Below are positions 6,454-58,112 of a DNA stretch of 64,000 bases, piece by piece. Made by a program: the position numbers and the translations under genes. The first letter of the stretch is position 1, and each line of letters starts with the position of its first letter. The stretch spans positions 62,001 to 126,000 of the forward strand of contig DRFO01000043.1 of NCBI GenBank assembly GCA_011050525.1. Reading direction: 5' to 3'. The DNA comes from Halopseudomonas xinjiangensis. Its GTDB lineage: Bacteria > Pseudomonadota > Gammaproteobacteria > Pseudomonadales > Pseudomonadaceae. The notes beneath the pieces were generated by a model. That model searched no databases and was not told where the DNA came from. It saw only the letters and a program-made list of their open reading frames with translations.

Positions 6454-7095
6454 TCAGAGGGGAAAGAGCTCTCCATCCACAACCAGAACGAGTTGATCCG
6501 CTGGGCTCGGCACGACATCCCATCCGCCGGTAAGGGTACCGAAGGAGGGCAGTACCGTTACCTGCTCCCGGAGCCAGAACACCGGAGCGCGCAGGCGCTC
6601 CCGGCTCACTGACAACGAATAGGCCGGATGCAGATGGCCCGCCAGCACATGCCGGCCCGGCACCGGGTTAGGTTCATGGGCGAGGCGAAACGGGCCGATA
6701 TCCAGATACGGGTGCCAGCTGATGCTTGCATCGATACCCTGGGCGTGACGATCATGATTGCCCACCACCGATTCCATGCGCAGTGCCGAGTGCTTGCTAA
6801 GCCATTCCGGGAACTGCGCCAGAAAGGGCTCGCCCTGCTGAGGGCGATGGTGAAAGAAATCCCCCAGTACGATCAGCCGCCTGGCGGAGAACTGTTCAAT
6901 CAACGCGGTCAGGCGCTGCAAGTCGTCAACGCTCTGCCCGCTCGGCACGGCTAACCCCTTGCGCCGGAAAAAGGCGCCCTTGCCAAAATGCGTGTCGGCC
7001 ACCAGCAGCGTTTGTTCGGCTGGATAGTAAATGGCCTTGTCCCCATGCAGAACGAGGTCTTCACCAGCTAGCCGCCAGTTCAGCGTCCGGCTCAT
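6454..7095 (-). CDS. pdeM: Ligase-associated DNA damage response endonuclease PdeM
   Basis: A calcineurin-like metallophosphoesterase of the PdeM family. The two-metal motifs appear in order: DTHFG (about residue 34), GDFFHH (about residue 78), GNHD (about residue 112) and GHLHP (about residue 152). At 213 residues it has the family's usual length. The last gene of the four-gene ligase-associated cluster, it overlaps the helicase stop by 4 nt. Members of this cluster co-occur widely in bacteria and are thought to process and seal damaged DNA ends; the nuclease polarity of this member cannot be read from sequence. Confidence 0.92.
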   Translation of the reverse strand: MSRTLNWRLAGEDLVLHGDKAIYYPAEQTLLVADTHFGKGAFFRRKGLAVPSGQSVDDLQRLTALIEQFSARRLIVLGDFFHHRPQQGEPFLAQFPEWLSKHSALRMESVVGNHDRHAQGIDASISWHPYLDIGPFRLAHEPNPVPGRHVLAGHLHPAYSLSVSRERLRAPVFWLREQVTVLPSFGTLTGGWDVVPSPADQLVLVVDGELFPL

Positions 7096-19507: not shown

Positions 19508-19643
19508 TGAATGGCCAGTCAAGCCTTTCTTGCTCCTTAGATGTGATTTAGTGTTGGCAGAAAAACCGGGCAACCCTTTCCTAGCACAGCCCGGTCGTTA
19601 AGCCCCGAACCTTCCCTCCCCATAGAAGTTCGGGGTTTTTTTT
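19508..19643 (+). ncRNA. ersA: ErsA-like (Spot 42-position) small RNA
   Basis: A roughly 135 nt transcript is predicted between polA and engB, with its own promoter and a strong intrinsic terminator. An internal hairpin CCGGGC/GCCCGG (19566-19571 with 19589-19594) exposes a pyrimidine-rich loop, and the terminator loop holds CTTCCCTCCC. In P. aeruginosa this intergenic position carries ErsA, an envelope-stress small RNA under AlgU that acts by base pairing. Position, length, promoter type and C/U-rich single strands all agree. The exact 5' end is a prediction. Confidence 0.75.
19603..19643 (+). terminator. Intrinsic terminator of the small RNA
   Basis: Perfect 8 bp stem CCCCGAAC / GTTCGGGG (19603-19610 with 19628-19635), a 17 nt loop, and eight T residues at 19636-19643. 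It is the strongest terminator in the window. Confidence 0.9.
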
Positions 19644-19677
19644 GCCCGCAATTCGAGCAAGCAGTACTTCGTTCCGG

Positions 19678-48727: not shown

Positions 48728-49474
48728 ATGATTGTCGATCCCTGGATCTGGATCGGCGCCTTTATATTGCTCGCCTACACGGTGGAAGCCATCACCGGAT
48801 TCGGCAGCCTGGTCATCGCCCTGTCACTCGGAGCGCTGCTGCTGCCGCTCTCTGAACTGATACCGGTGATGATCGCGCTGAACGTGCTGATGAGCGGCTA
48901 CATGGCCTGGCGCAACCGCCGGCATATTCACTGGCCGACCCTGCTCAAGCTGATATTGCCACTGATGCTGCTCGGTACTCTGGCCGGTTACGTGATGCGT
49001 CCCTGGCTCGGCGATCAATTGCTTAAAGCCGCCTTCGGCGTGCTGGTGCTGTGGTTCTCTACCCGCGAGCTATGGCGCATGTATCACAAGCATACGGTGC
49101 ACCCCCATCCGCCCATGCTCAGCCGCGTACTCACCTTCGGCGCCGGCATTACCCATGGCCTGTTCGCCTCCGGCGGCGCCCTGCTGGTTTACGCCATGGC
49201 CGGCACCCCACTGAACAAAAGCCACCTGCGCGCCACCCTGCTCAGCGTCTGGTTCAGCCTCAACTCCTGCCTGTGCGTCATTTTCCTGCTCGACGGCACC
49301 CTGATGCCGGCCCTGCCCAGAGTGGTCACCTTTATACCGCTGCTGGTGGTCGGCGCACTGCTCGGCGAATTCCTGCACCACCGCCTCAACGAACATCGCT
49401 TCCGCGTGTTTCTCTACAGCCTGCTGGTGATCTCCGGCACGTTGTTGCTGGGTAAAGCGCTGGTGGATATGTAA
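48728..49474 (+). CDS. TauE/SafE family membrane transporter
   Basis: A 248-residue polytopic protein with about eight helices of the TauE/SafE family (sulfite exporter type): AYTVEAITGFGSLVIALSLGALLLP near the N-terminus (read in parts), and the second-half repeat GAGITHGLFASGGALLVYAMAG. The substrate is not predictable; sulfite, sulfoacetate and other anions are known for relatives. It is the last gene before the accessory region and is followed by a strong hairpin. Confidence 0.88.
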   Translation: MIVDPWIWIGAFILLAYTVEAITGFGSLVIALSLGALLLPLSELIPVMIALNVLMSGYMAWRNRRHIHWPTLLKLILPLMLLGTLAGYVMRPWLGDQLLKAAFGVLVLWFSTRELWRMYHKHTVHPHPPMLSRVLTFGAGITHGLFASGGALLVYAMAGTPLNKSHLRATLLSVWFSLNSCLCVIFLLDGTLMPALPRVVTFIPLLVVGALLGEFLHHRLNEHRFRVFLYSLLVISGTLLLGKALVDM

Positions 49475-49697: not shown

Positions 49698-49843
49698 TTA
49701 GATCGCGTGCGGTTTAACGTTCACCCGCTTGCAGCGAGGAGGGATAAGTGCATGATTAGCTTGAGAAAAATACGCTGCAACGAAAGAATGCTATATCGCG
49801 TATTAAAGACGCGTGCGATCTAATCACTGTTGAACTAAACCGC
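49698..49843. repeat. Nested inverted repeats of unknown nature
   Basis: Three nested complementary pairs lie within 146 bp: TTAGATCGC (49698-49706) with GCGATCTAA (49815-49823); GCGGTTTA-ac-GTTCA (49709-49723) with TGAACTAAACCGC (49831-49843); and TTGCAGCG with CGCTGCAA inside. The first two interlock in pseudoknot order. Integron-like R boxes GTTTAAC (49712-49718) and GTTGAAC (49829-49835) coincide with it. The region 49475-49925 holds no convincing gene. This could be an eroded attC, an element end or a structured RNA; I cannot decide. Confidence 0.45.
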
Positions 49844-49925
49844 TTTGCGGGGCTGAGTGGTCCAGGCGATTTTGGGGTCCAGCCACCACACTTTTGTTTC
49901 CACACACGAGATGAGGAAGCAGAAG

Positions 49926-50795
49926 ATGACTCCCCTAAGGCAACAGATGTTGACCGCCATGCAGATGCGCGGTTATTCACCCAGAACCCATGATGCTTAC
50001 CTGCGAGTTGTACAGGGACTCGCGTTGCACTACCGGCAATCGCCCGAACGGCTGAGCCTGGAGCAGATCAGGGCCTACCTTGAGCACCTTGCCTGTGAGC
50101 GGCACCTCTCCGCATCAACTTGCCGGCAGGCGCTGCATGCGATTCGCTTTCTGTTCGTGCAGGTACTCAAGCGTCCGGATCTGGATGAACCGATACCGGT
50201 GCCCAAGCTGCCGCAGCGCATACCAGAGTTGCTGACGCGCGATGAAGTCGCGCGCATTCTAGCCGCCTGCACCAATGACAAGCATCAGATGATGCTCGAG
50301 GTCTGTTATGGCTGCGGCTTGCGGGTCAGTGAGTTATGCCGGCTCAAGGTCAGCAGCATCGATGGACAGCGCCACCTGCTGCGCGTGACTCAGGGCAAGG
50401 GCGCCAAGGATCGCCCGGTCATCCTCCCCGACACGTTGTTGCAACACCTGCAGGTTTACTGGCAACGCTATCGACCAAGCGACTGGCTGTTCCCCAGCAC
50501 GCTCATGCCAGAGGCCGCGCTCAGTCCCAGCAGCATCCAGAAGGTCTACCTCCGGGTTAAAGCCGCGGCGGGCGTTCGCCGCCAAGGCGGTATTCATGGC
50601 CTGCGCCACGCCTATGCCACCCACCTGCTGGAGGGCGGTTTACCCATCCACCAGCTGCAGCATCTGTTGGGCCACAGCGATATTCGCACTACCCTGCGCT
50701 ACGTCCACTGGCTGCCCGGGGGCGCCCAGCGCAGTGACCCGGATACCGATCTGATCGCGCGGTTGGAAGGAAGGGCAAAGGTGTCCCATGGGTAG
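49926..50795 (+). CDS. Tyrosine recombinase of the IS91-like element
   Basis: A 289-residue phage-integrase-family protein with an N-terminal SAM-like domain (YSPRTHDAYLRVVQGLA) and a C-terminal catalytic domain with the full set: R133 (GLRVSEL), K158, H224 and R227 (HGLRHAYATHLL), H250 (LLGH) and nucleophile Y259 (TTLRYVH). The extra helix insertion typical of integron integrases (IntI) is absent, and the gene points toward the cassettes instead of away, so it is not IntI. A GAGGAAG precedes ATG 49926. It overlaps the transposase gene by 8 nt. Confidence 0.87.
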   Translation: MTPLRQQMLTAMQMRGYSPRTHDAYLRVVQGLALHYRQSPERLSLEQIRAYLEHLACERHLSASTCRQALHAIRFLFVQVLKRPDLDEPIPVPKLPQRIPELLTRDEVARILAACTNDKHQMMLEVCYGCGLRVSELCRLKVSSIDGQRHLLRVTQGKGAKDRPVILPDTLLQHLQVYWQRYRPSDWLFPSTLMPEAALSPSSIQKVYLRVKAAAGVRRQGGIHGLRHAYATHLLEGGLPIHQLQHLLGHSDIRTTLRYVHWLPGGAQRSDPDTDLIARLEGRAKVSHG

Positions 50796-51936
50796 CGAAG
50801 CCAGCGTGCAGGAGGCGCTGAGTCGTTTTCTTGAACCGCAAGGGCTCGATGCGCATCGTCTGCGGATCTGCAGCCATCTGCTGAACTGCCGTACCGCGGC
50901 CATGGGTGGTCGGCAATGGCACTGCAACATCTGCGCGCATGACCAGGTGCAGTACTTCAGCTGCCGTGATCGGCATTGCCCGCAGTGCCAGGGGCGAGCC
51001 ATCCAGGACTGGTCCGCGCGACAGCGCGCTGATGTGTTGCCGGTGCCTTATCACCACCTGGTGTTTACCCTGCCGCATCAACTCAATGGCTGGGTGCAGT
51101 TGCATCCCGAAGTGATCTATCGGCTGCTGTTCAAGGCCGTCTGGGGCACGCTGGATCAGTTTGGTCGAGATCCCAAACGGTTGAATGGTCAACTGGGCAT
51201 GACCGCCGTGCTGCACACCTGGGGCCAGACCCTGACCCAGCATGTGCACCTGCATTGCCTGGTACCGGCAGGCGCCTTGAGCGCCGATGGCCAATGGCAC
51301 GCGGCGCGCAGCAGCTATCTGTTCCCGGTGCGTGCCCTGTCCAGATGCTTTCGGGGTTTGATGGTCAGCGCCCTGCGTCAGGCCGCCAGGTTGCAGCAGC
51401 TCCAGCGCGTAACGCGGCCACACGAAGTGAGTCAACTACTTCACGCGTTGATGAGCACCGAATGGGTGGTGTACAGCAAGCCCTGCCTGCAGCACACCTC
51501 AACGGTGATCGACTACCTGGCGCGCTACACCCGTCGGATCGCCATCAGCAATGCGCGGTTAGAGCAGGTGACTACGCAGGACGTGACGTTGCGCTACAAG
51601 GACTACCGGCACGGGGCCAGACAGCGGCGCATGACCCTGGCCGGCGATGAGTTCGTGCGGCGGTTTTTGCTTCACGTCCTGCCGAAGGGATTGATGCGAG
51701 TCAGGCATTACGGCTTTCTGGCCAACCGATGTCGACGAACCCACCTGGCCGCCATACAGAAAACGTTGCAGCACATGCATGACCCAGCGCCTGACACAGT
51801 ACCGCTCACCGACGCGGCAGCTATTTATCAGTGCCACGTCTGCAAGCAACGCTCAATGGTCTGCACCGGCATCCTGGCGCCGAAACAGCCTGGACCGTGG
51901 CGCACCTGGCCGGGACGGCAAGAGCGACGATGTTGA
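50788..51936 (+). CDS. IS91-family HUH transposase
   Basis: A 382-residue rolling-circle transposase. An N-terminal zinc-binding part has CNICAHDQ and CRDRHCPQCQG (about residues 46-68); the HUH motif is HVHLH at residues 152-156; the paired catalytic tyrosines are in DYLARYTRR (about residues 240-248, spacing Y-x3-Y). All catalytic motifs look intact and length is normal, so the element may be active. A second cysteine pair (CHVCKQ) lies near the C-terminus. Confidence 0.92.
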   Translation: MGSEASVQEALSRFLEPQGLDAHRLRICSHLLNCRTAAMGGRQWHCNICAHDQVQYFSCRDRHCPQCQGRAIQDWSARQRADVLPVPYHHLVFTLPHQLNGWVQLHPEVIYRLLFKAVWGTLDQFGRDPKRLNGQLGMTAVLHTWGQTLTQHVHLHCLVPAGALSADGQWHAARSSYLFPVRALSRCFRGLMVSALRQAARLQQLQRVTRPHEVSQLLHALMSTEWVVYSKPCLQHTSTVIDYLARYTRRIAISNARLEQVTTQDVTLRYKDYRHGARQRRMTLAGDEFVRRFLLHVLPKGLMRVRHYGFLANRCRRTHLAAIQKTLQHMHDPAPDTVPLTDAAAIYQCHVCKQRSMVCTGILAPKQPGPWRTWPGRQERRC

Positions 51937-51943
51937 TCGACTG

Positions 51944-52010
51944 AAGCCAGCAGGGGAGATTGACTGCCCAGAAAATCGAGGCACGGGCAACTTTGGGTGC
52001 CCACTGGCTT
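51944..52010. repeat. Hairpin downstream of the transposase, candidate IS91 end
   Basis: Outer stem AAGCCAG (51944-51950) with CTGGCTT (52004-52010) and inner stem GGGCA (51985-51989) with TGCCC (51998-52002). Structured, GC-rich hairpins mark the oriIS and terIS ends of IS91 elements. The remaining non-coding stretch up to 52186 shows nothing else recognisable. Confidence 0.4.
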
Positions 52011-52186
52011 TCGGTCAGAAATAGCGTTAATTTTGAGTCATGAAGGGACAAACAAGAGCCAATAGGGACCAAAATATGACGACTTTGCACATAGTTGAAA
52101 GCCGATTTTCTGCCGTCCAGCTCGACCGTCATCCCTCGCTTGAATACAAAACCCTATAAATGCCCCCGCATCAGTGTGGCGGCTCA

Positions 52187-52245
52187 GTTCAACAGACATT
52201 TGAACGGCATGCTGGACACGCCGTTCAAATGCTTAGATGTTGGGC
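52187..52245 (+). repeat. attC site 1 (59 bp)
   Basis: R'' box GTTCAAC (52187-52193) and R' box GTTGGGC (52239-52245) flank a perfect 12 bp stem CATTTGAACGGC / GCCGTTCAAATG with an 11 nt loop. The cassette that should precede it is missing or cut off by the IS91-like element. Confidence 0.65.
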
Positions 52246-52256
52246 AGAGATACAAC

Positions 52257-52670
52257 ATGGATAGTTCTAAGATCGAACCGGAAATCAAGCATAAGAGTGG
52301 GACGCGGTTTCCCTGGGTCTATGTACTGAGATGGCTTGTGCTCGGCTATGGAGTCGTAAGCTTTGTGTCGTTCAGTTTATTCATGATTCAGGCGGGCGAC
52401 GCCCTCCCGATCACCACCCGTATGTTTTTTCCAGGACTGCAATTTCTGTTTCTGGTTGGCGGGGTTCTGCTGGTCCTACGTCCTAGGCAAGCGCTATACG
52501 CGGCGGTTCTGTTCTCTGGGCATCTAATTGTCGCGTTCGGCCATACCTACGACCGGTACCCAACTATTCTTTTTACGTCTGAGTACGTTGTGAAGTGGCT
52601 GATTTCGATAGGATCCGTAGCGCTAAGCCTTTACGTGTTCTACTGCCAGCGACGAATAAGACAGAAATAG
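52257..52670 (+). CDS. Cassette 1: small membrane protein
   Basis: A 137-residue protein with four predicted helices (about residues 21-43, 54-74, 80-97 and 108-130) and charged ends. I do not recognise the family. It starts at ATG 52257, 12 bp after the cassette boundary, a spacing usual for cassette genes. It ends 37 bp before attC 2. Function unknown. Confidence 0.65.
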   Translation: MDSSKIEPEIKHKSGTRFPWVYVLRWLVLGYGVVSFVSFSLFMIQAGDALPITTRMFFPGLQFLFLVGGVLLVLRPRQALYAAVLFSGHLIVAFGHTYDRYPTILFTSEYVVKWLISIGSVALSLYVFYCQRRIRQK

Positions 52671-52706
52671 GAGAGCACCGTTGCTCGAGCCGCGGGGCAT
52701 GATCCA

Positions 52707-52784
52707 GCCCAACAAGTCGCTTTTGTCGGACAATTTCTCCACCGCTTCGCGGCTACAAAATTGCCGCAAAGCTCTACGTTAGGC
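52707..52784 (+). repeat. attC site 2 (78 bp)
   Basis: R'' GCCCAAC (52707-52713) and R' GTTAGGC (52778-52784), both full consensus, with the central CCGCTTCGCGGCTACAA. Recombination would be expected between G and TT of the R' box. Confidence 0.9.
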
Positions 52785-52791
52785 ATCACAA

Positions 52792-53064
52792 ATGACATCG
52801 AGTGACGTTGAAAAAGCAGTTGCGGCGACTGAGGCATTCGTATCGGTCTTGCAAGCAGAAGATTTGCCGGGCTGGGCAAAGCGCTTCGCTCAGATTGCGG
52901 CCTACCTCAAGGTTGGTGATGTCGAAGGCGCACTGCACAGTTATCGAAATACGTCTTATGCCGGCCCTGGCAGCCTTAGCGACATCTATGCTCAGGATCA
53001 AGCAGCATTTGACCGGGCGTGGAGCCAGTGTTCAGTTGCTTTACGTGCGCTGCGTAAGGCCTAA
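52792..53064 (+). CDS. Cassette 2: hypothetical soluble protein
   Basis: A 90-residue, mostly helical soluble protein (VEKAVAATEAFVSVLQAED… GDVEGALHSYRNTSYAGPGSLSDIY). No family recognised. The ATG is 8 bp inside the cassette, and the stop codon TAA lies inside the R'' box of attC 3, a normal economy of cassette genes. Confidence 0.65.
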   Translation: MTSSDVEKAVAATEAFVSVLQAEDLPGWAKRFAQIAAYLKVGDVEGALHSYRNTSYAGPGSLSDIYAQDQAAFDRAWSQCSVALRALRKA

Positions 53065-53151
53065 CAAACGGCTGTTGTCGCCCCTTCGGGGCTGGGACGG
53101 CCTTTCCGCCGCTAAGCGGCTACAAGTCCGCCCCAAAGCCGGGCGTTATGT
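53059..53151 (+). repeat. attC site 3 (93 bp)
   Basis: R'' GCCTAAC (53059-53065) and R' GTTATGT (53145-53151; one deviation from GTTRRRY). It is longer than its relatives because of an extra hairpin CCCCTTCGGGG in the left arm; the core CCGCTAAGCGGCTACAA is kept. Confidence 0.88.
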
Positions 53152-53162
53152 GAATACCACTT

Positions 53163-53396
53163 ATGGATATTGAGAACACCAGGGATAGAGCCAAAGTTGA
53201 ATCCTTACGAAAGCACTCGCTTAGTCTTGTAAATCAAGGCTTGGCGGAAGAACATCAGAATTGGGATATAAAGTCCCCTTGGCACAATTCGAAATACGTT
53301 GAGAAGGCCACGGGGAACCAGTGGGTAATCTATCTACCAGATCAGGCCTGGCCTGGGGAGGTTAAGGTTTTAAATGCGCACGTCGCAATCACATAA
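53163..53396 (+). CDS. Cassette 3: hypothetical protein
   Basis: A 77-residue hydrophilic protein (MDIENTRDRAKVESLRKHS … WVIYLPDQAWPGEVKVLNAHVAIT) without membrane segments or a recognised domain. The ATG is 17 bp after the cassette boundary; the stop overlaps the R'' box of attC 4. Confidence 0.6.
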   Translation: MDIENTRDRAKVESLRKHSLSLVNQGLAEEHQNWDIKSPWHNSKYVEKATGNQWVIYLPDQAWPGEVKVLNAHVAIT

Positions 53397-53454
53397 CAAT
53401 CAAATTATGTACGCGCGTTTCACGCGTCGGGCGCCGCATATTTGGGCGTTATGT
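53391..53454 (+). repeat. attC site 4 (64 bp)
   Basis: R''-like ACATAAC (53391-53397) and R' GTTATGT (53448-53454) enclose ACGCG…CGCGT arms. Shorter and different in sequence from sites 2, 3, 5 and 6, so this cassette probably came from another host lineage. Confidence 0.75.
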
Positions 53455-53478
53455 TCAGCGCATTCTGGGAGGCCGTTT

Positions 53479-53763
53479 GTGACAATCCAAATAATCTTGG
53501 CTTCCCTGGCAGTAATTTGGAACCTGCTTCCCTTCGTTTTGCTTCTATGGCTCTGGAACGATCAGCCTCGCCACAGGTACCTCATGGCGATCTTCTTCGG
53601 TATTAGCGTGCTTTTCTATGCTTTGATGTATTGGTCATCTGAAGGAAGTTACTTCTTTGTACCAATTTTGATCTATGCATTCCTGATTGTGTTGTCCACG
53701 TGGATGCTAGCTTCGAATACTCTTTTTCGTACAGCGGCTCAGCGTGACCGCAAGGTGTTGTGA
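53479..53763 (+). CDS. Cassette 4: small membrane protein
   Basis: A 94-residue protein with three predicted helices (about residues 3-24, 34-50 and 56-77) and a basic C-terminus. The GTG at 53479 is preceded by GGGAGG 6 nt upstream; the longer open frame would include the attC site and is rejected. No family recognised. Confidence 0.6.
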   Translation: MTIQIILASLAVIWNLLPFVLLLWLWNDQPRHRYLMAIFFGISVLFYALMYWSSEGSYFFVPILIYAFLIVLSTWMLASNTLFRTAAQRDRKVL

Positions 53764-53781
53764 TGTGCGGACGAAGAAATT

Positions 53782-53859
53782 ACATAACAATCGGCTGCAC
53801 GGCGACCGATTCTCCGCCGCTCCGCGGCTACAAACCGGCGCGTGAGCCGGGCGTTAGAC
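53782..53859 (+). repeat. attC site 5 (78 bp)
   Basis: R''-like ACATAAC (53782-53788) and R' GTTAGAC (53853-53859) with core CCGCTCCGCGGCTACAA, the host-type attC. Confidence 0.88.
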
Positions 53860-54020
53860 CTCGCACTTCGATAGAGAGCACATACAGTGTCAGCCGGGCT
53901 CAACGGGCGCCCACCTCGCGAAAGCATTAGCACCTGATCTCGCAAGCTCATCGCTTGCATACCTTCCTTGACCAATAGCAAGATGGTCAATCGCCACTGC
54001 AGTTGGTATGCGTTCGCATC

Positions 54021-54493
54021 ATGTTGAAAAATCCAGAACTGCCAATGGGCTGTTCCTCTGCAGCCCTTGTTCTGCGTGAGGCTAAGCGCCTACATCGCAT
54101 AGCAAAGTCTGATTCCCCTTCATCGTCATTACCGATGCTGCGGCGAGTTCTTTCAGCGGAGTCCTGCACGGTATAACCTTGCCTGAGGCGTTTCGCGCTC
54201 GCGGCAGCGTACAACGAAAGCACCTTCTACGGTTGTTGGCCAATGAAGCCGGCTTTTTAAGCTGGGAGACGTATCGACCAGCCTTGTGCAGCATCCCACC
54301 ATCCGAGTTGGATTCGTTCATCCTGCTCGAAAGGGGGTGGGCTTTTGCCCACAACTGGTTTCCTTCAGAGGAACAGACCCAGGCACAAGTCGCCAAGGTC
54401 GGCGGACGTGTATTGCGAATCGGTCGCCACGCTGTGGCACTGACTACCCAGCAAGTAGACGACCACTACCAGTTCGGTGGAAGCCATGGCTGA
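54021..54493 (+). pseudogene. Frameshifted gene in cassette 5
   Basis: Two frames together give one continuous protein. From ATG 54021 the first frame reads …LREAKRLHRIAKSDSP…LPMLRRVLSA and then stops at 54174; the next frame carries on as GVLHGITLPEAFRARG…KHLLRLLANEAGFLSWETYRP. This matches from memory a family whose members read through as RRLL…VLRGISLPEL…KHLLR…EAGFASWE. A one-base loss (or two-base gain) near 54155 explains the break. Function unknown. The 160 bp before the ATG contain no gene that I can support. Confidence 0.65.
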
Positions 54494-54689
54494 AACAGTT
54501 TTCGCATCCGCAAGCCTGCTTGCGATCCTTGCTTGGCTATCTTTGGCGTTGGCTCTGATCGTCGGTCGGCCAGCCCTCATGTCAAACTTTATGCAACGCG
54601 TTCGCCTTGACGTACGTACCTTAAAGCGTACACTTGGTGGGAAATTGTTCACGCAAGAGGTGCGTCATGACGGGAATCACAGCAACTGA
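54486..54689 (+). CDS. Possible small single-helix membrane protein
   Basis: A 67-residue open frame with one convincing helix (ASASLLAILAWLSLALALIVG, read in parts) and a basic tail. The ATG at 54486 has GGTGGAAG just upstream and overlaps the end of the frameshifted gene. The 3' part overlaps the promoter and first codons of the antitoxin gene, which weakens the case. No family recognised. Confidence 0.35.
   Translation: MAETVFASASLLAILAWLSLALALIVGRPALMSNFMQRVRLDVRTLKRTLGGKLFTQEVRHDGNHSN
54607..54634 (+). promoter_or_regulatory. Promoter of the toxin-antitoxin pair
   Basis: TTGACG (54607-54612) and TACACT (54629-54634) with a 16 bp spacer, 32 bp before the antitoxin ATG. Repeated GTAC steps (CGTACGTAC … GCGTACAC) inside the promoter resemble the TGTACA-type operators bound by YefM. 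Toxin-antitoxin cassettes usually carry their own promoter. Confidence 0.55.
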
Positions 54690-54909
54690 GGCGCGCAGCA
54701 ACCTTTATCGGTTGATTGACGAGACCGCCGAGTCCCACCAACCAATCGTCATCATGGGTAAGCGGAACAAAGCCGTCCTGGTTTCCGAGGAAGACTGGTC
54801 AGCTATTCAGGAAACACTTTACCTGCTCTCCGTGCCTGGTATGCGGGAGTCTATTCGTGAGGGGATGGATACCCCCGTGGATGAATGCGATGAGGAGCTG
54901 GACTGGTGA
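54667..54909 (+). CDS. yefM: YefM-family antitoxin
   Basis: An 80-residue antitoxin of the Phd/YefM family: the N-terminal dimerisation and DNA-binding part reads TGITATEARSNLYRLIDETAE and the middle HQPIVIMGKRNKAVLVSEEDW, with an acidic C-terminal tail (DTPVDECDEELDW) that would wrap the toxin. ATG 54667 has AGAGG 7 nt upstream. It neutralises the YoeB-type toxin and, together with it, represses the promoter just upstream. Confidence 0.9.
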   Translation: MTGITATEARSNLYRLIDETAESHQPIVIMGKRNKAVLVSEEDWSAIQETLYLLSVPGMRESIREGMDTPVDECDEELDW

Positions 54910-55169
54910 CATGGAAGTTGGTTTACACCAAGCAAGCACAGAAAGATGCAAAGAAGTTGGCCTCAAGCGGCCTCAAACCAAAAGCCCAGGAACTGTTAGC
55001 GCTGATAGGGGAAGATCCCTACCGCAAGTCGCCTCCGTTTGAGAAGCTCATTGGTGATCTTGCGGGGGCCTATTCACGCCGCATCAATATTCAGCACCGT
55101 CTGGTTTACCAGGTGCTCGAAGACGAGCAGGTGGTGAAAGTCCTCAGGCTCTGGAGCCACTACGAATAA
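54906..55169 (+). CDS. yoeB: YoeB/Txe-family toxin
   Basis: An 87-residue ribosome-dependent mRNA endonuclease of the RelE/YoeB fold. Conserved features: KQAQKDAKKL, the PFEKLIGDLAGAYSRRI loop, QHRLVYQV with the catalytic Arg-His region, and the terminal LWSHYE (YoeB ends in a similar RYHY). GTG 54906 overlaps the antitoxin stop by 4 nt. In integron arrays such pairs are thought to stabilise the array against cassette loss. Confidence 0.9.
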   Translation: MTWKLVYTKQAQKDAKKLASSGLKPKAQELLALIGEDPYRKSPPFEKLIGDLAGAYSRRINIQHRLVYQVLEDEQVVKVLRLWSHYE

Positions 55170-55170
55170 T

Positions 55171-55248
55171 GCATAACAAATCGCTGTTGGCGGACAAGTT
55201 CTCCACCGCTCCGCGGCTACAAGCCAGCGCGTCAGCCGGGCGTTAAAT
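55171..55248 (+). repeat. attC site 6 (78 bp)
   Basis: R'' GCATAAC (55171-55177) and R' GTTAAAT (55242-55248) with core CCGCTCCGCGGCTACAA. It closes a 1.4 kb cassette that holds the frameshifted gene and the toxin-antitoxin pair, long for a single cassette. Confidence 0.9.
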
Positions 55249-55262
55249 TCGAAGGCAACGTT

Positions 55263-55604
55263 GTGCCACTAAGGAATGTGCTTGGAATTATCGTATTCGG
55301 CCACGCTGCTTTTGTAGCTATTCAGCTGGCCTCAAACTTCGATGACCTCAAGCAATCGACAGCGGCCTTTGCAGCACCTGAAGACCCGTTCTGGTTTCTT
55401 TCAGGTCTCATTGTTTTTAATGCTTTGATAGTCATTGCGGCGGTCAGTCTTGGAACCTATTTGATGGGGGCGAAAGACCTCAAGGTTGTGTACGTGCTGC
55501 CTCTTGCAATTGTAGCGATGCTTTATGGCGGTTATAGTCTGGCAATTGCCGCGGGTGCTTTTGGTCTATGTCTTCTGGAGCGGTATCAGTCCAATGAAAT
55601 TTAA
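55263..55604 (+). CDS. Cassette 6: membrane protein
   Basis: A 113-residue protein with about three hydrophobic helices (residues 5-22, 44-66 and 75-103) separated by the polar stretch FDDLKQSTAAFAAPEDPFW. No family recognised. The GTG start is 21 bp inside the cassette; the TAA stop lies in the R'' box of the truncated last attC. Confidence 0.6.
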   Translation: MPLRNVLGIIVFGHAAFVAIQLASNFDDLKQSTAAFAAPEDPFWFLSGLIVFNALIVIAAVSLGTYLMGAKDLKVVYVLPLAIVAMLYGGYSLAIAAGAFGLCLLERYQSNEI

Positions 55605-55605
55605 C
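55599..55605 (+). repeat. Truncated attC site 7 (R'' box only)
   Basis: ATTTAAC fits RYYYAAC and overlaps the stop of the cassette 6 gene exactly as in the other cassettes. The following 32 bp up to the next core gene contain neither a stem nor an R' box, so the right part of the site is deleted and the array ends here. Confidence 0.5.
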
Positions 55606-55637
55606 AAGACGCACCAATACGCAGCACGAGCCACACC

Positions 55638-56357
55638 ATGATCGATAAAACCGCCATAATTCTCGGCGTCTCAGGCTCAGTCGGCCAGGCTCTTCTCGAC
55701 GAGCTAATACACTGCCCCGCTTTTAACCAAATCATTGCCTTGACCCGGCGGCCGCTTGACCAACCAGCTGACTCGAAAGTAGAGCAGCGGCTGGTGCCAG
55801 ATATGACCCCAAGCAACCTTGAACAAGCCGTTATTGATGCATTGGCCGATTGCGGCGACGATGCCGTTGGCTTCAGCGTTCTGGGCGTGGGGGCAGGTAC
55901 GGCGAAGCTTTCCCTGGCGGAGCACCGCGCGGTGGATGTTGAGCTTAACGCTGCCTTTGCGCGAGGCTTGAAGGCGTCCGGCAAAGTGCAGCATCTGGCC
56001 TTTATGTCGGCAATAGGCGCCAATATCAATGCAAGAACCAGCGGCTCGGGTGCTGCAGGCATGCCGCGCTATTCACGGGTCAAAGGTGAAGCGGAGGCGG
56101 CGGTACTCGACCAGGGCCCCGCGATTGTGAGCATCTTTCGGCCATCGATGATTATCGGCTCCAGGCACACACCCAAAATACTTTCGACTGTTCTGCCGCT
56201 GTTGGCGCCACTTACGCCCGCCAGGTATCGCTCCATACGCACCACTGAAATCGCGCAGGCGATGGTAGCTGCTGCCCTGCGGACCCCGGGGAAAAGTGGA
56301 ATCTATAACTATTCGGAAATGATGGGACTGATTTCTGAAGGCAGAAGCGGTAATTGA
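55638..56357 (+). CDS. NAD(P)-binding TIP30/atypical SDR-like protein
   Basis: A 239-residue protein with the dinucleotide motif AIILGVSGSVGQALLDELI at the N-terminus and the atypical SDR layout of the Htatip2/TIP30 group: FSVLGVGAG, HLAFMSAIGAN, YSRVKGEAE (YxxxK) and FRPSMIIGSR. Relatives are described as NAD(P)-binding or nucleoside-diphosphate-sugar epimerase-like; substrate unknown. Base composition is again core-like, marking the return to the chromosome backbone. Confidence 0.85.
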   Translation: MIDKTAIILGVSGSVGQALLDELIHCPAFNQIIALTRRPLDQPADSKVEQRLVPDMTPSNLEQAVIDALADCGDDAVGFSVLGVGAGTAKLSLAEHRAVDVELNAAFARGLKASGKVQHLAFMSAIGANINARTSGSGAAGMPRYSRVKGEAEAAVLDQGPAIVSIFRPSMIIGSRHTPKILSTVLPLLAPLTPARYRSIRTTEIAQAMVAAALRTPGKSGIYNYSEMMGLISEGRSGN

Positions 56358-57650: not shown

Positions 57651-57929
57651 CTAATTACCGATGCTGATAGTTCCCTGCGCTACAAGTAAATTGGATCCTG
57701 GCGGGCATCCGCAGGCCACATGGTCACCAGCTCTTGCTGCGGGCCCTGCTGGTAAATCTACCGTTCTGCCTCCTACCGCAACAATTTCACCTATGCCTTT
57801 TTTACAAGCCGGGCAGGTTGCCTTATGGCCGACAGAGCTAGCGACGAGGCCGTCGAAAAGTAGGCCGTCGTTACCTTCGATAACGACACCCCCGGTTGAG
57901 GTTTTTGAGCCGATTCCTATGCCAAGCAT
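57651..57929 (-). CDS. Orphan PAAR-domain protein
   Basis: A 92-residue PAAR protein, the sharpened tip that sits on the VgrG spike of type VI secretion systems. The family pattern is visible: SKTSTGGVVIEG, VGHKATCPACKKGIGEIV with the CPAC pair, DLPAGPAARAGDHVACGC, and the glycine-rich end. ATG 57929 has GGGAG 11 nt upstream. No VgrG or sheath genes are in the window, so this is an orphan tip, which often delivers effectors encoded next to it. Confidence 0.88.
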   Translation of the reverse strand: MLGIGIGSKTSTGGVVIEGNDGLLFDGLVASSVGHKATCPACKKGIGEIVAVGGRTVDLPAGPAARAGDHVACGCPPGSNLLVAQGTISIGN

Positions 57930-58112
57930 ATGTGTGAACACTCCCTGTATGAGATTTAGCTTGCTACCACGCCCATGGTGGCTGACAAACCAATCATACC
58001 TGCCGCAGAAGCGAGGGCGATTCGCAATGGGCCATACTGGTACCTAGCACACATTTCTGATGTGTCGAGCCGGTGCGCAGCCGGCAATCTAACGTATTCA
58101 CCGCGGTCTGGG

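Follow-up and report, generated by a model that had tools for sequence, protein, structure and literature searches.

A putative integrase-less satellite array in Halopseudomonas xinjiangensis that begins with a cassette-like int and IS91-type element

How does an array of integron cassettes come to stand in a bacterial chromosome with no integron integrase (IntI) beside it? The question is raised by 64 kb of Halopseudomonas xinjiangensis DNA, positions 62001-126000 of contig C43 in assembly G000 (3.97 Mb in 44 contigs, 92% complete), which is called the window throughout. An earlier note, made from the letters alone, had described there six attC sites and a truncated seventh, a cargo of unknown membrane and soluble proteins and a toxin-antitoxin pair, and took the whole for an orphaned array, that is, a cluster of attC sites lacking integron integrase (CALIN). 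That interpretation is partly supported. Comparison of sequences leads us to consider it probable, if some way from assured, that the locus is an integrase-less satellite array of the integron system resident in the genus, and that its first unit, which encodes a tyrosine recombinase and an IS91-type transposase, is a composite mobile element resembling a cassette. In what follows, G and L numbers are labels of genomes and loci, and the genus set comprises 37 genomes including G000.

The attC sites and the integrases of the genome

Three models were used. R1 is a covariance model (80 positions, 10 base pairs) of 33 attC sites, drawn from 12 loci in congeneric species and none of them from G000; its source sites were gathered with a purpose-written scanner that demanded TAAC/GTTA ends and pairing. 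R2 is a profile of eleven intI-linked attI sites of the genus, aligned over 60 bp. R3 was made from 17 right ends of the element, all from outside the genus. The sites in the window are the following.

52187-52245 (+): attC-like site 1, the right end of the element; R'' GTTCAAC, R' GTTGGGC; R3 61.7 bits
52707-52784 (+): attC 2, host type; GCCCAAC..GTTAGGC; R1 31.3 bits, E 4.8e-6; 96% to an attC in G020
53059-53151 (+): attC 3, host type; GCCTAAC..GTTATGT; R1 69.2 bits, E 3.8e-16; 97% to an attC in G016
53391-53454 (+): attC 4, short (64 bp); ACATAAC..GTTATGT; R1 40.5 bits, E 1.7e-8
53782-53859 (+): attC 5, host type; ACATAAC..GTTAGAC; R1 57.5 bits, E 4.9e-13
55171-55248 (+): attC 6, host type; GCATAAC..GTTAAAT; R1 37.6 bits, E 9.9e-8
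55599-55613 (+): possible R'' half of a truncated attC; TTTAACAAGACGC at about 55602, by eye

Six R''...R' sites can be read directly, all in one orientation, and the covariance models place them beyond chance; the existence of the array is confirmed. Up to E 10, R1 makes five matches in the window, which are sites 2-6 (E 3.8e-16 to 4.8e-6), among them the four, at 52707, 53059, 53782 and 55171, that the earlier note had singled out for such a search. The best matches of these five sites to attC sites in sister-species arrays reach 88-97%, two of them over only 42-52 bp, which bears out the claim of host-type sites. The array carries the same attC types as the arrays of sister species, from which, it should be noted, R1 itself was built. 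The supposed truncated site near 55602 is called by neither R1 nor R3 and is at most an R'' half-site.

Site 1 escapes R1 in the same search up to E 10, and R3 finds exactly 52187-52245 (E 7e-12 over 315 kb). Because R3, not R1, finds this site and the six other copies in the genus, site 1 appears to be of another attC type than the host's; its reading as a second host-type attC was rejected on that ground. A reading of the region as attI was likewise rejected, since it recurs at the end of the element away from intI, for example in G007 and G020. The earlier note was right to treat site 1 as attC-like, and it had not seen that the site is the right end of the element at 49830-52239.

The whole-genome search with R1 gave 11 matches at E ≤1, four of them window sites and seven on C16 (104049-112819). 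Window site 52707 is missing from that list, which comes from a less sensitive search, as only 150 of 2658 candidates were scored. The seven attC sites of C16 form a second resident-type array, in which several acetyltransferase-like open reading frames (ORFs) can be seen by eye.

That no IntI lies in the 64 kb also holds: in the whole of G000 only C3:13627-14571, one full-length IntI of class 1, exceeds the cut-off of the integron-integrase model TIGR02249. With host-type attC sites and no IntI in 64 kb, the array is a CALIN by the IntegronFinder definition; it has no functional intI in cis, as a complete integron has. The C3 enzyme belongs to a class 1 integron (L046, 13603-16100) with a qac-type gene and Tn402-type tni genes, a stretch that over 2.5 kb matches class 1 integron DNA carried by enterobacterial plasmids at 99.8-99.9% identity among the six matches listed; for this reason it was rejected as the resident enzyme. 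The resident type is represented on C29 (43789-44117) by an N-terminal fragment of intI, 58-70% identical to its two closest queries, which adjoins a full attI (47.5 bits) and a first cassette. The search for IntI elsewhere in the genome, which the earlier note had proposed, thus yields an intact class 1 enzyme on C3 and resident-type parts on C16 and C29. C29 ends about 0.85 kb further on, and C16 about 0.2 kb past its array. Among the 37 genomes, 24 have an IntI over the cut-off, and broken or truncated intI genes are frequent, as on C29 and in G016.

As only a fragment of the resident intI survives in this assembly, the array has probably ceased to move, unless it is acted on by the class 1 IntI on C3 or by the recombinase of the element. 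Class 1 integrases accept many attC sites, and the C3 enzyme could act on those of the array.

The int and IS91-type element and its copies

The first unit of the array, 2.4 kb long, has ends in common with copies in G016, G019 and G020 and with loci outside the genus. Its parts are as follows.

49830-52239 (+): cassette-like element (a TT...G unit), running from the left end (GTT)GAACTAAACCGCT through the recombinase and the IS91-type transposase to an attC-like right end
49857-50795 (+): 312-aa tyrosine recombinase; among NCBIfam models it scores best with TIGR02249 (integron integrase), though below cut-off
50788-51936 (+): IS91 family transposase (Y2/HUH), 382 aa; NF033538 414.7 bits; PF04986, PF14319

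The recombinase, absent from the earlier note, is the only TIGR02249 match in the window, and it is no integron integrase by that model: it scores 193.4 bits against a cut-off of 265 and leaves unmatched the profile stretch 181-236, the IntI-specific extra. Its R, K, H-xx-R, H and Y positions, which we take to be catalytic, are invariant in four aligned homologs. The transposase frame is open and matched along its length, with the Y2/HUH transposase and zinc-binding domains of the IS91 family. IS91 elements move by rolling-circle transposition from an origin at one end, with a GAAC/CAAG-type target, and the junctions of the element are compatible with such a target.

Within the genus, blast matched both 49824-51737 and 52142-52259 of the window to one G016 locus, and a search with 51940-52260 matched eight genomes including G000. 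The match at the right end stops at window position 52241, inside GTT, in four of the seven other genomes, and at 52243 (G012), 52248 (G020) and 52259 (G016) in the rest. Six of the other copies have the GTT, followed by differing bases (GTTGGGC, GTTAGGC, GTTAGAG, GTTATAT, GTTAAAT, GTTAGCT); G012 has none, and with R3 E-values of 0.37-0.93 it was rejected as a copy and is uncounted. The same was done with a G013 locus on C14 (L090), whose Int and transposase are mostly 32-35% identical (R3 E 0.01). R3 thus finds the window site and six other copies, one site each in 7 of 37 genomes. The left end GTT|GAACTAAACCGC occurs in the window, G016, G019 and G020, each time after ..CACTGTT. In G016 the element lies between a broken intI and the array on one contig; in G019 an intact intI and the left end of the element stand at the end of C38, and the right end and attC sites at the start of C21, so that the continuity of this copy is inferred. 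The copies in the genus are mostly decayed: open int and transposase frames occur only in the window and G016, int of G020 is frameshifted, G007, G021 and G001 keep pieces of the transposase, and G004 keeps the right end alone. The G004 site (L088, C56:12101-12159), an attC-type end without recognisable int or transposase genes, is followed by two ORFs that look toxin-antitoxin-like by eye.

The same ends recur in Marinobacter, in Halomonas, on a Thiodictyon plasmid and in metagenome-assembled genomes. A scan of GTDB genomes gave 51 loci, of which 25, chosen as closer relatives, were examined for ends; plasmid homologs number at least 5000 records, and the two best (54% and 50%) both have an adjoining IS91 transposase and the same two ends. 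Left ends, GTT|GAAC, were read in 28 copies (25 GTDB loci, two plasmids, genus), and attC-like right ends, GTT then A or G, in 24 (17 outside the genus, 7 inside), both being the patterns searched for. Outside the genus, right ends were sought as a CYAAC box and GTTR together with a stem whose minimum length was 6 bases in one search and 8 in the other, with at most one candidate per locus, and several contigs ended early; the seven right ends in the genus were located by similarity. The element copies have the structure of a gene cassette, with ORFs followed by attC and G^TT on both sides, and on this comparison the element looks like a gene cassette.

The right ends resemble attC in detail. 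As in attC, the two arms of the hairpin pair through CYAAC and GTTR, and the site measures 59-96 bp. In the outer helix of the 17 outside copies YAAC:GTTR is kept in all, the three outermost pairs are poor and 73.9% of cells are paired overall; in the inner helix 95.1% of cells are paired and 7 of 12 pairs have changed on both sides. The covariation score of the inner helix, 0.238, was reached by none of 500 shuffles, and slid versions scored at most 0.068. Part of this signal is built in, because pairing belonged to the search pattern. A pairing test at the left GTT separated poorly and served only for reading junctions.

Thirteen of the 28 copies lie in an integron context: the window, G016, G019, G020, L175, L178, L180, L182, L183, L184, L191, L192 and L195. 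An intI stands within about 0.4 kb to the left of the element in L184, L192, L195, G016 and G019; an attI profile match adjoins it in the window, G020 and also G019; an attC ends at its left end in L183 (by R1) and L175 (by eye); and R1 finds attC downstream in L178, L180, L182 and L191. A long array in Marinobacter contains an R1 attC (6819-6890) whose end coincides with the left GTT of the element, and on the Thiodictyon plasmid the element follows a near-copy of another attC-like repeat of the array there, beside an annotated integron integrase (by eye). Halomonas sp. Y3 carries three copies (L180, L181, L182) on one chromosome, 97.7-100% identical, two of them after TCTAATACCTGTT; in one of the three the transposase gene is split by about 1.2 kb.

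The attI-like core, the satellites of the genus and the cargo

The array occupies a slot between two chromosomal genes and begins with an attI-like core.

48728-49474 (+): TauE/SafE permease gene, left chromosomal flank; PF01925; protein matched in 31 of 37 genus genomes
49800-49831 (+): attI-like core; the last 32 of 60 attI positions (29-60), ending in GTT; no adjoining intI
55638-56357 (+): NAD-binding epimerase-like gene, right chromosomal flank; 79% and 78% protein identity in G006 and G014, same site

Homology of the left flank (blastn 87%) reaches 49813 in G006 and 49831 in G014, and sequence common to these relatives resumes at 55623. In between, both hold other genes, without an R1 attC at E 0.05, from which we conclude that the content of the slot turns over; cassettes fixed in all relatives, which the earlier note had set against its own reading, are not what is found. 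In G028, TauE and a distant epimerase homolog (35-40%) are 37 bp apart. The order in G018 is a short-chain dehydrogenase/reductase gene, TauE, an attI-like site, attC and SulP.

The core scores 26.2 bits against R2 (E 1.5e-6 over 215 kb, 2.6e-5 for the genome) and matches the attI consensus, counted by eye, at 26 of 32 positions including TCTAATCACTGTT. The element starts where the first cassette starts beside intI in relatives, with TCTAATCACTGTT|GAAC here and TCTAATCACTGTT|A... there. The motif at the attI end, TAATCACTGTT, was first noticed while comparing left flanks of the element; a search for it among the loci compared led, in many of them, to positions preceding an intI or what remains of one, and also to flanks of the element, to the G014 slot and to one unrelated place (L065). 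The last 11 bases of the R2 sites are invariant because the sites were selected by that end motif, and R2 E-values are optimistic for sites with the TAATCACTGTT end, because the profile was built from sites picked by a motif seen here. R2 also scores 17.2 bits at the same slot in G014 and 14.0 beside the element copy in G020. The array is thus a CALIN in the formal sense, but, unlike a plain one, probably not headless. A remnant of intI between TauE and attI was rejected, since the window, G006 and G014 gave no intI hit beyond chance.

Such arrays do not stand alone. R2 matches at E ≤0.5 in 33 of 37 genomes, also hitting sites with other ends (for example that on C29 of G000, TAATTACTGTT, and L161). 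Of its 47 matches of at least 40 bits, 15 lie within 1.5 kb of a listed IntI match or remnant, and 32 lie farther away, one to three per genome in 22 of 37 genomes; the weakest matches are absent from the IntI listing, and for G033:C39:193, which is among the 32, just 192 bp lie on the left. Solitary, near full-length attI sites include G005:C25:74088 and 342643, G003:C16:78799, G003:C11:37743, G007:C1:207868, G015:C1:362076 and others (L155-L172). Of the 32, here called satellites, 18 were examined with their flanks, and in 16 of these R1 finds attC at E ≤0.05, every one downstream and in the right orientation; L171 has no R1 attC within 6 kb, and L164 has only about 0.6 kb of downstream sequence. 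No intI hit at E 0.01 was obtained in the 18 satellites, L173, L174, L081 and L082, while five control loci were positive.

Upstream, the intI-attI spacer is matched over about 170-190 bp by at least 8 of the 18 satellites, as far as the seven longest matches of each locus show; G018a, G001, G011, G009 and G030 matched non-orthologous loci upstream over only 54-80 bp. Some satellites are orthologous across species, for example those of G007, G003, G022, G026b and G034a (89-95% over about 480 bp). A motif like GGGCGGTAGCGT lies left of attI in 14 of 18 satellites (L155-L172), and, in 14 of the 21 scanned loci that carry intI, just past the 3' end of that gene (L019-L037; L068 at 7710). Beyond the genus, four other genera of the family include 20 genomes with an R2 match at E 1e-6, and in six of these genomes (G066, G075, G174, G205, G278 and G291) the matches number 2-4. 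These counts rest on one profile made from eleven sites of a single genus; with it, attI-headed arrays without intI appear to be common in the genus, so that the word orphaned, which suggests a stray remnant, fits the window array poorly.

The cargo and the remaining ORFs of the array are these.

52257-52670 (+): cassette 1 ORF, no family (ORF list, Pfam, NCBIfam, PADLOC)
52792-53064 (+): cassette 2 ORF, 90 aa; weak DUF6966 below cut-off (Pfam)
53163-53396 (+): cassette 3 ORF, 77 aa, no family
53374-53763 (+): cassette 4 ORF frame, start codon uncertain; membrane-like by eye; weak DUF5931 below cut-off
54179-54493 (+): ORF, no family, in the stretch of about 720 bp between attC 5 and the toxin-antitoxin cassette
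54634-54909 (+): Phd/YefM antitoxin; PF02604
54906-55169 (+): Txe/YoeB toxin; TIGR02116 91.8 bits, cut-off 51.8
55263-55604 (+): last cassette ORF, 113 aa, membrane-like by eye

The cargo is as the earlier note had it, small proteins without family and a toxin-antitoxin pair (Phd/YefM-YoeB). For the small proteins there was no Pfam match over cut-off apart from the two weak DUF matches below it, no PADLOC match and, among those scanned (all except the ORF at 53374-53763), no NCBIfam match. Neither R1 nor R3 calls an attC in 53860-54582. Two cassettes may be fused there, since in G020 the toxin-antitoxin cassette directly follows an attC-like match; matches of 86.7-87.7% to this cassette stand in arrays of G020 and G009 that are linked to intI. 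Close to the right flank of the array, at 57651-57941, is a gene for a PAAR-motif protein, possibly a part of a type VI secretion tip. The only Rfam match reported in the window is the ErsA / Pseudomon-1 small RNA (19530-19651), above the gathering score.

Origin of the array and what it would mean

The explanation that we favour is that the attI-like core in the conserved slot after TauE took in cassettes by recombination at G^TT. An IntI acting in trans, in an ancestor in which it was active, would have joined the cassettes and the element, the newest nearest attI; this placement at the window slot is what we infer. The attC-type right end would let the element pass for a cassette, and therefore fill a cassette slot and be inserted like one; a different way of moving may be open to it through its IS91-type transposase.

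Several points weigh against this explanation. The core covers 32 of 60 attI positions, its E-value is optimistic through the selection of sites, and the leader common to many satellites is not seen there, so that the site could be secondary and attG-like. R2 finds no attI beside the element in G016. The parts on C29 and C16 may be one integron, a link that is a guess across a 44-contig assembly. The search for right ends favours attC-like shapes, and its pattern demands pairing. R1 finds no attC in the Thiodictyon and Thiothrix loci. Moreover, 15 of the 28 copies have no detected integron feature, many of them on short contigs, with R1, a model fitted to one genus, run on 22 of 27 outside loci. 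IS91 elements insert beside GAAC/GTTC, and for that reason GTT junctions alone are not proof of IntI action.

A somewhat unlikely alternative is that the element is an ordinary IS91-type insertion sequence, the hairpin its rolling-circle origin, GTT its target preference and the likeness to attC convergent, with no role for IntI. The intact IS91 transposase, a hairpin then GTT that would suit an HUH origin, the 15 copies just mentioned and the left flank of one Halomonas copy (L181), which is unlike attI, all agree with it. What such a sequence would leave unaccounted for is the CYAAC:GTTR pairing and the attC-like lengths of 59-96 bp (the boxes being part of the search pattern), the four left ends in the genus, each after ..CACTGTT at a place that R2 or a neighbouring intI marks as the head of an integron, and the 13 copies in an intI, attI or attC context.

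A plain degraded integron seems to us likewise somewhat unlikely: a full intI-attI-array would once have stood here, intI would have been deleted, and the element would be a later passenger. The attI-like core and the frequency of broken or truncated intI in the genus (the C29 fragment, G016) speak for such a history. The lack of an intI hit at the slot in the window, G006 and G014 speaks against it, as do the 32 solitary attI sites in 22 genomes, which need many clean losses unless they descend from few ancestors, some being orthologous. Less probable still is that the element is a self-mobile cassette, whose recombinase, alone or with the HUH transposase, recombines attC-type ends and attI and keeps IntI-less arrays mobile, the scattered attI sites forming a multi-platform integron served by one trans-acting enzyme. 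Off-target, attG-like insertion of the cassettes by IntI at a chromosomal site with no inherited attI is improbable: insertion outside attI is published, as stated in PMC12444791 and in a work cited by PMC12901181, and the attI resemblance spans only 32 bp, yet 26 of those positions fit the consensus, TCTAATCACTGTT included, and attI-like sequence also stands at the TauE slot of G014 and 4-6 kb from TauE in G018 and G010.

How would a satellite array of this kind relate to known systems? CALINs and their loci are well described (PMC9024848, PMC12444791). IntegronFinder, according to PMC9024848, confines its attI search to class 1, and because it skips other attI sites, attI-headed satellites would be filed as CALIN. 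The off-ilvD CALINs of Xanthomonas likewise form cassette clusters at several conserved loci away from intI, but no attI head is mentioned for them in the available part of PMC12444791, in contrast to the array described here. With a CALIN the window array shares at least two attC sites (five by R1, one by R3) without a neighbouring IntI; it differs in its attI-like head, its conserved slot and a first unit with its own recombinase and transposase.

ISShvi3 includes an int gene, and IS1111-attC elements and group IIC-attC introns are mobile elements associated with attC sites, which they invade. In PMC9229058, ISShvi3, found next to an attC in one Shewanella integron, is noted as a new cassette structure, and the other two are named. 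The likeness to ISShvi3, and to IS91-like elements with an upstream integrase gene, is that of an IS91-type element within an integron; the difference is that here the attC-type end is part of the element in 24 copies (17 outside the genus) and the left end is fixed at G^TT. Unlike IS1111-attC elements and group IIC-attC introns, the element does not disrupt the attC or attI beside it, and its attC-type end is its own. In Halorhodospira halochloris an IS200/605 HUH element stands beside an intI-less, toxin-antitoxin-rich array, but there it comes after the final attC, and the available part of PMC7923331 does not call it a cassette. Among the open-access papers listed by the literature searches, none was seen to report many intI-less, attI-headed arrays in one genus or a cassette family made up of int-IS91 elements; subscription papers on Pseudomonas integrons lie outside that scope.

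The usual picture of an integron is one intI, one attI and one array. The present comparison suggests that many arrays within one genus have an attI head and no intI, and that a standard tool would class them as CALIN. If these docking sites are live, cassette capture would be a genome-wide, trans-acting process. If the proposed nature of the element is true, int and IS91-type elements with an attC-type end would link single-strand HUH transposition to integron recombination, and a transposon could enter an integron as a cassette.

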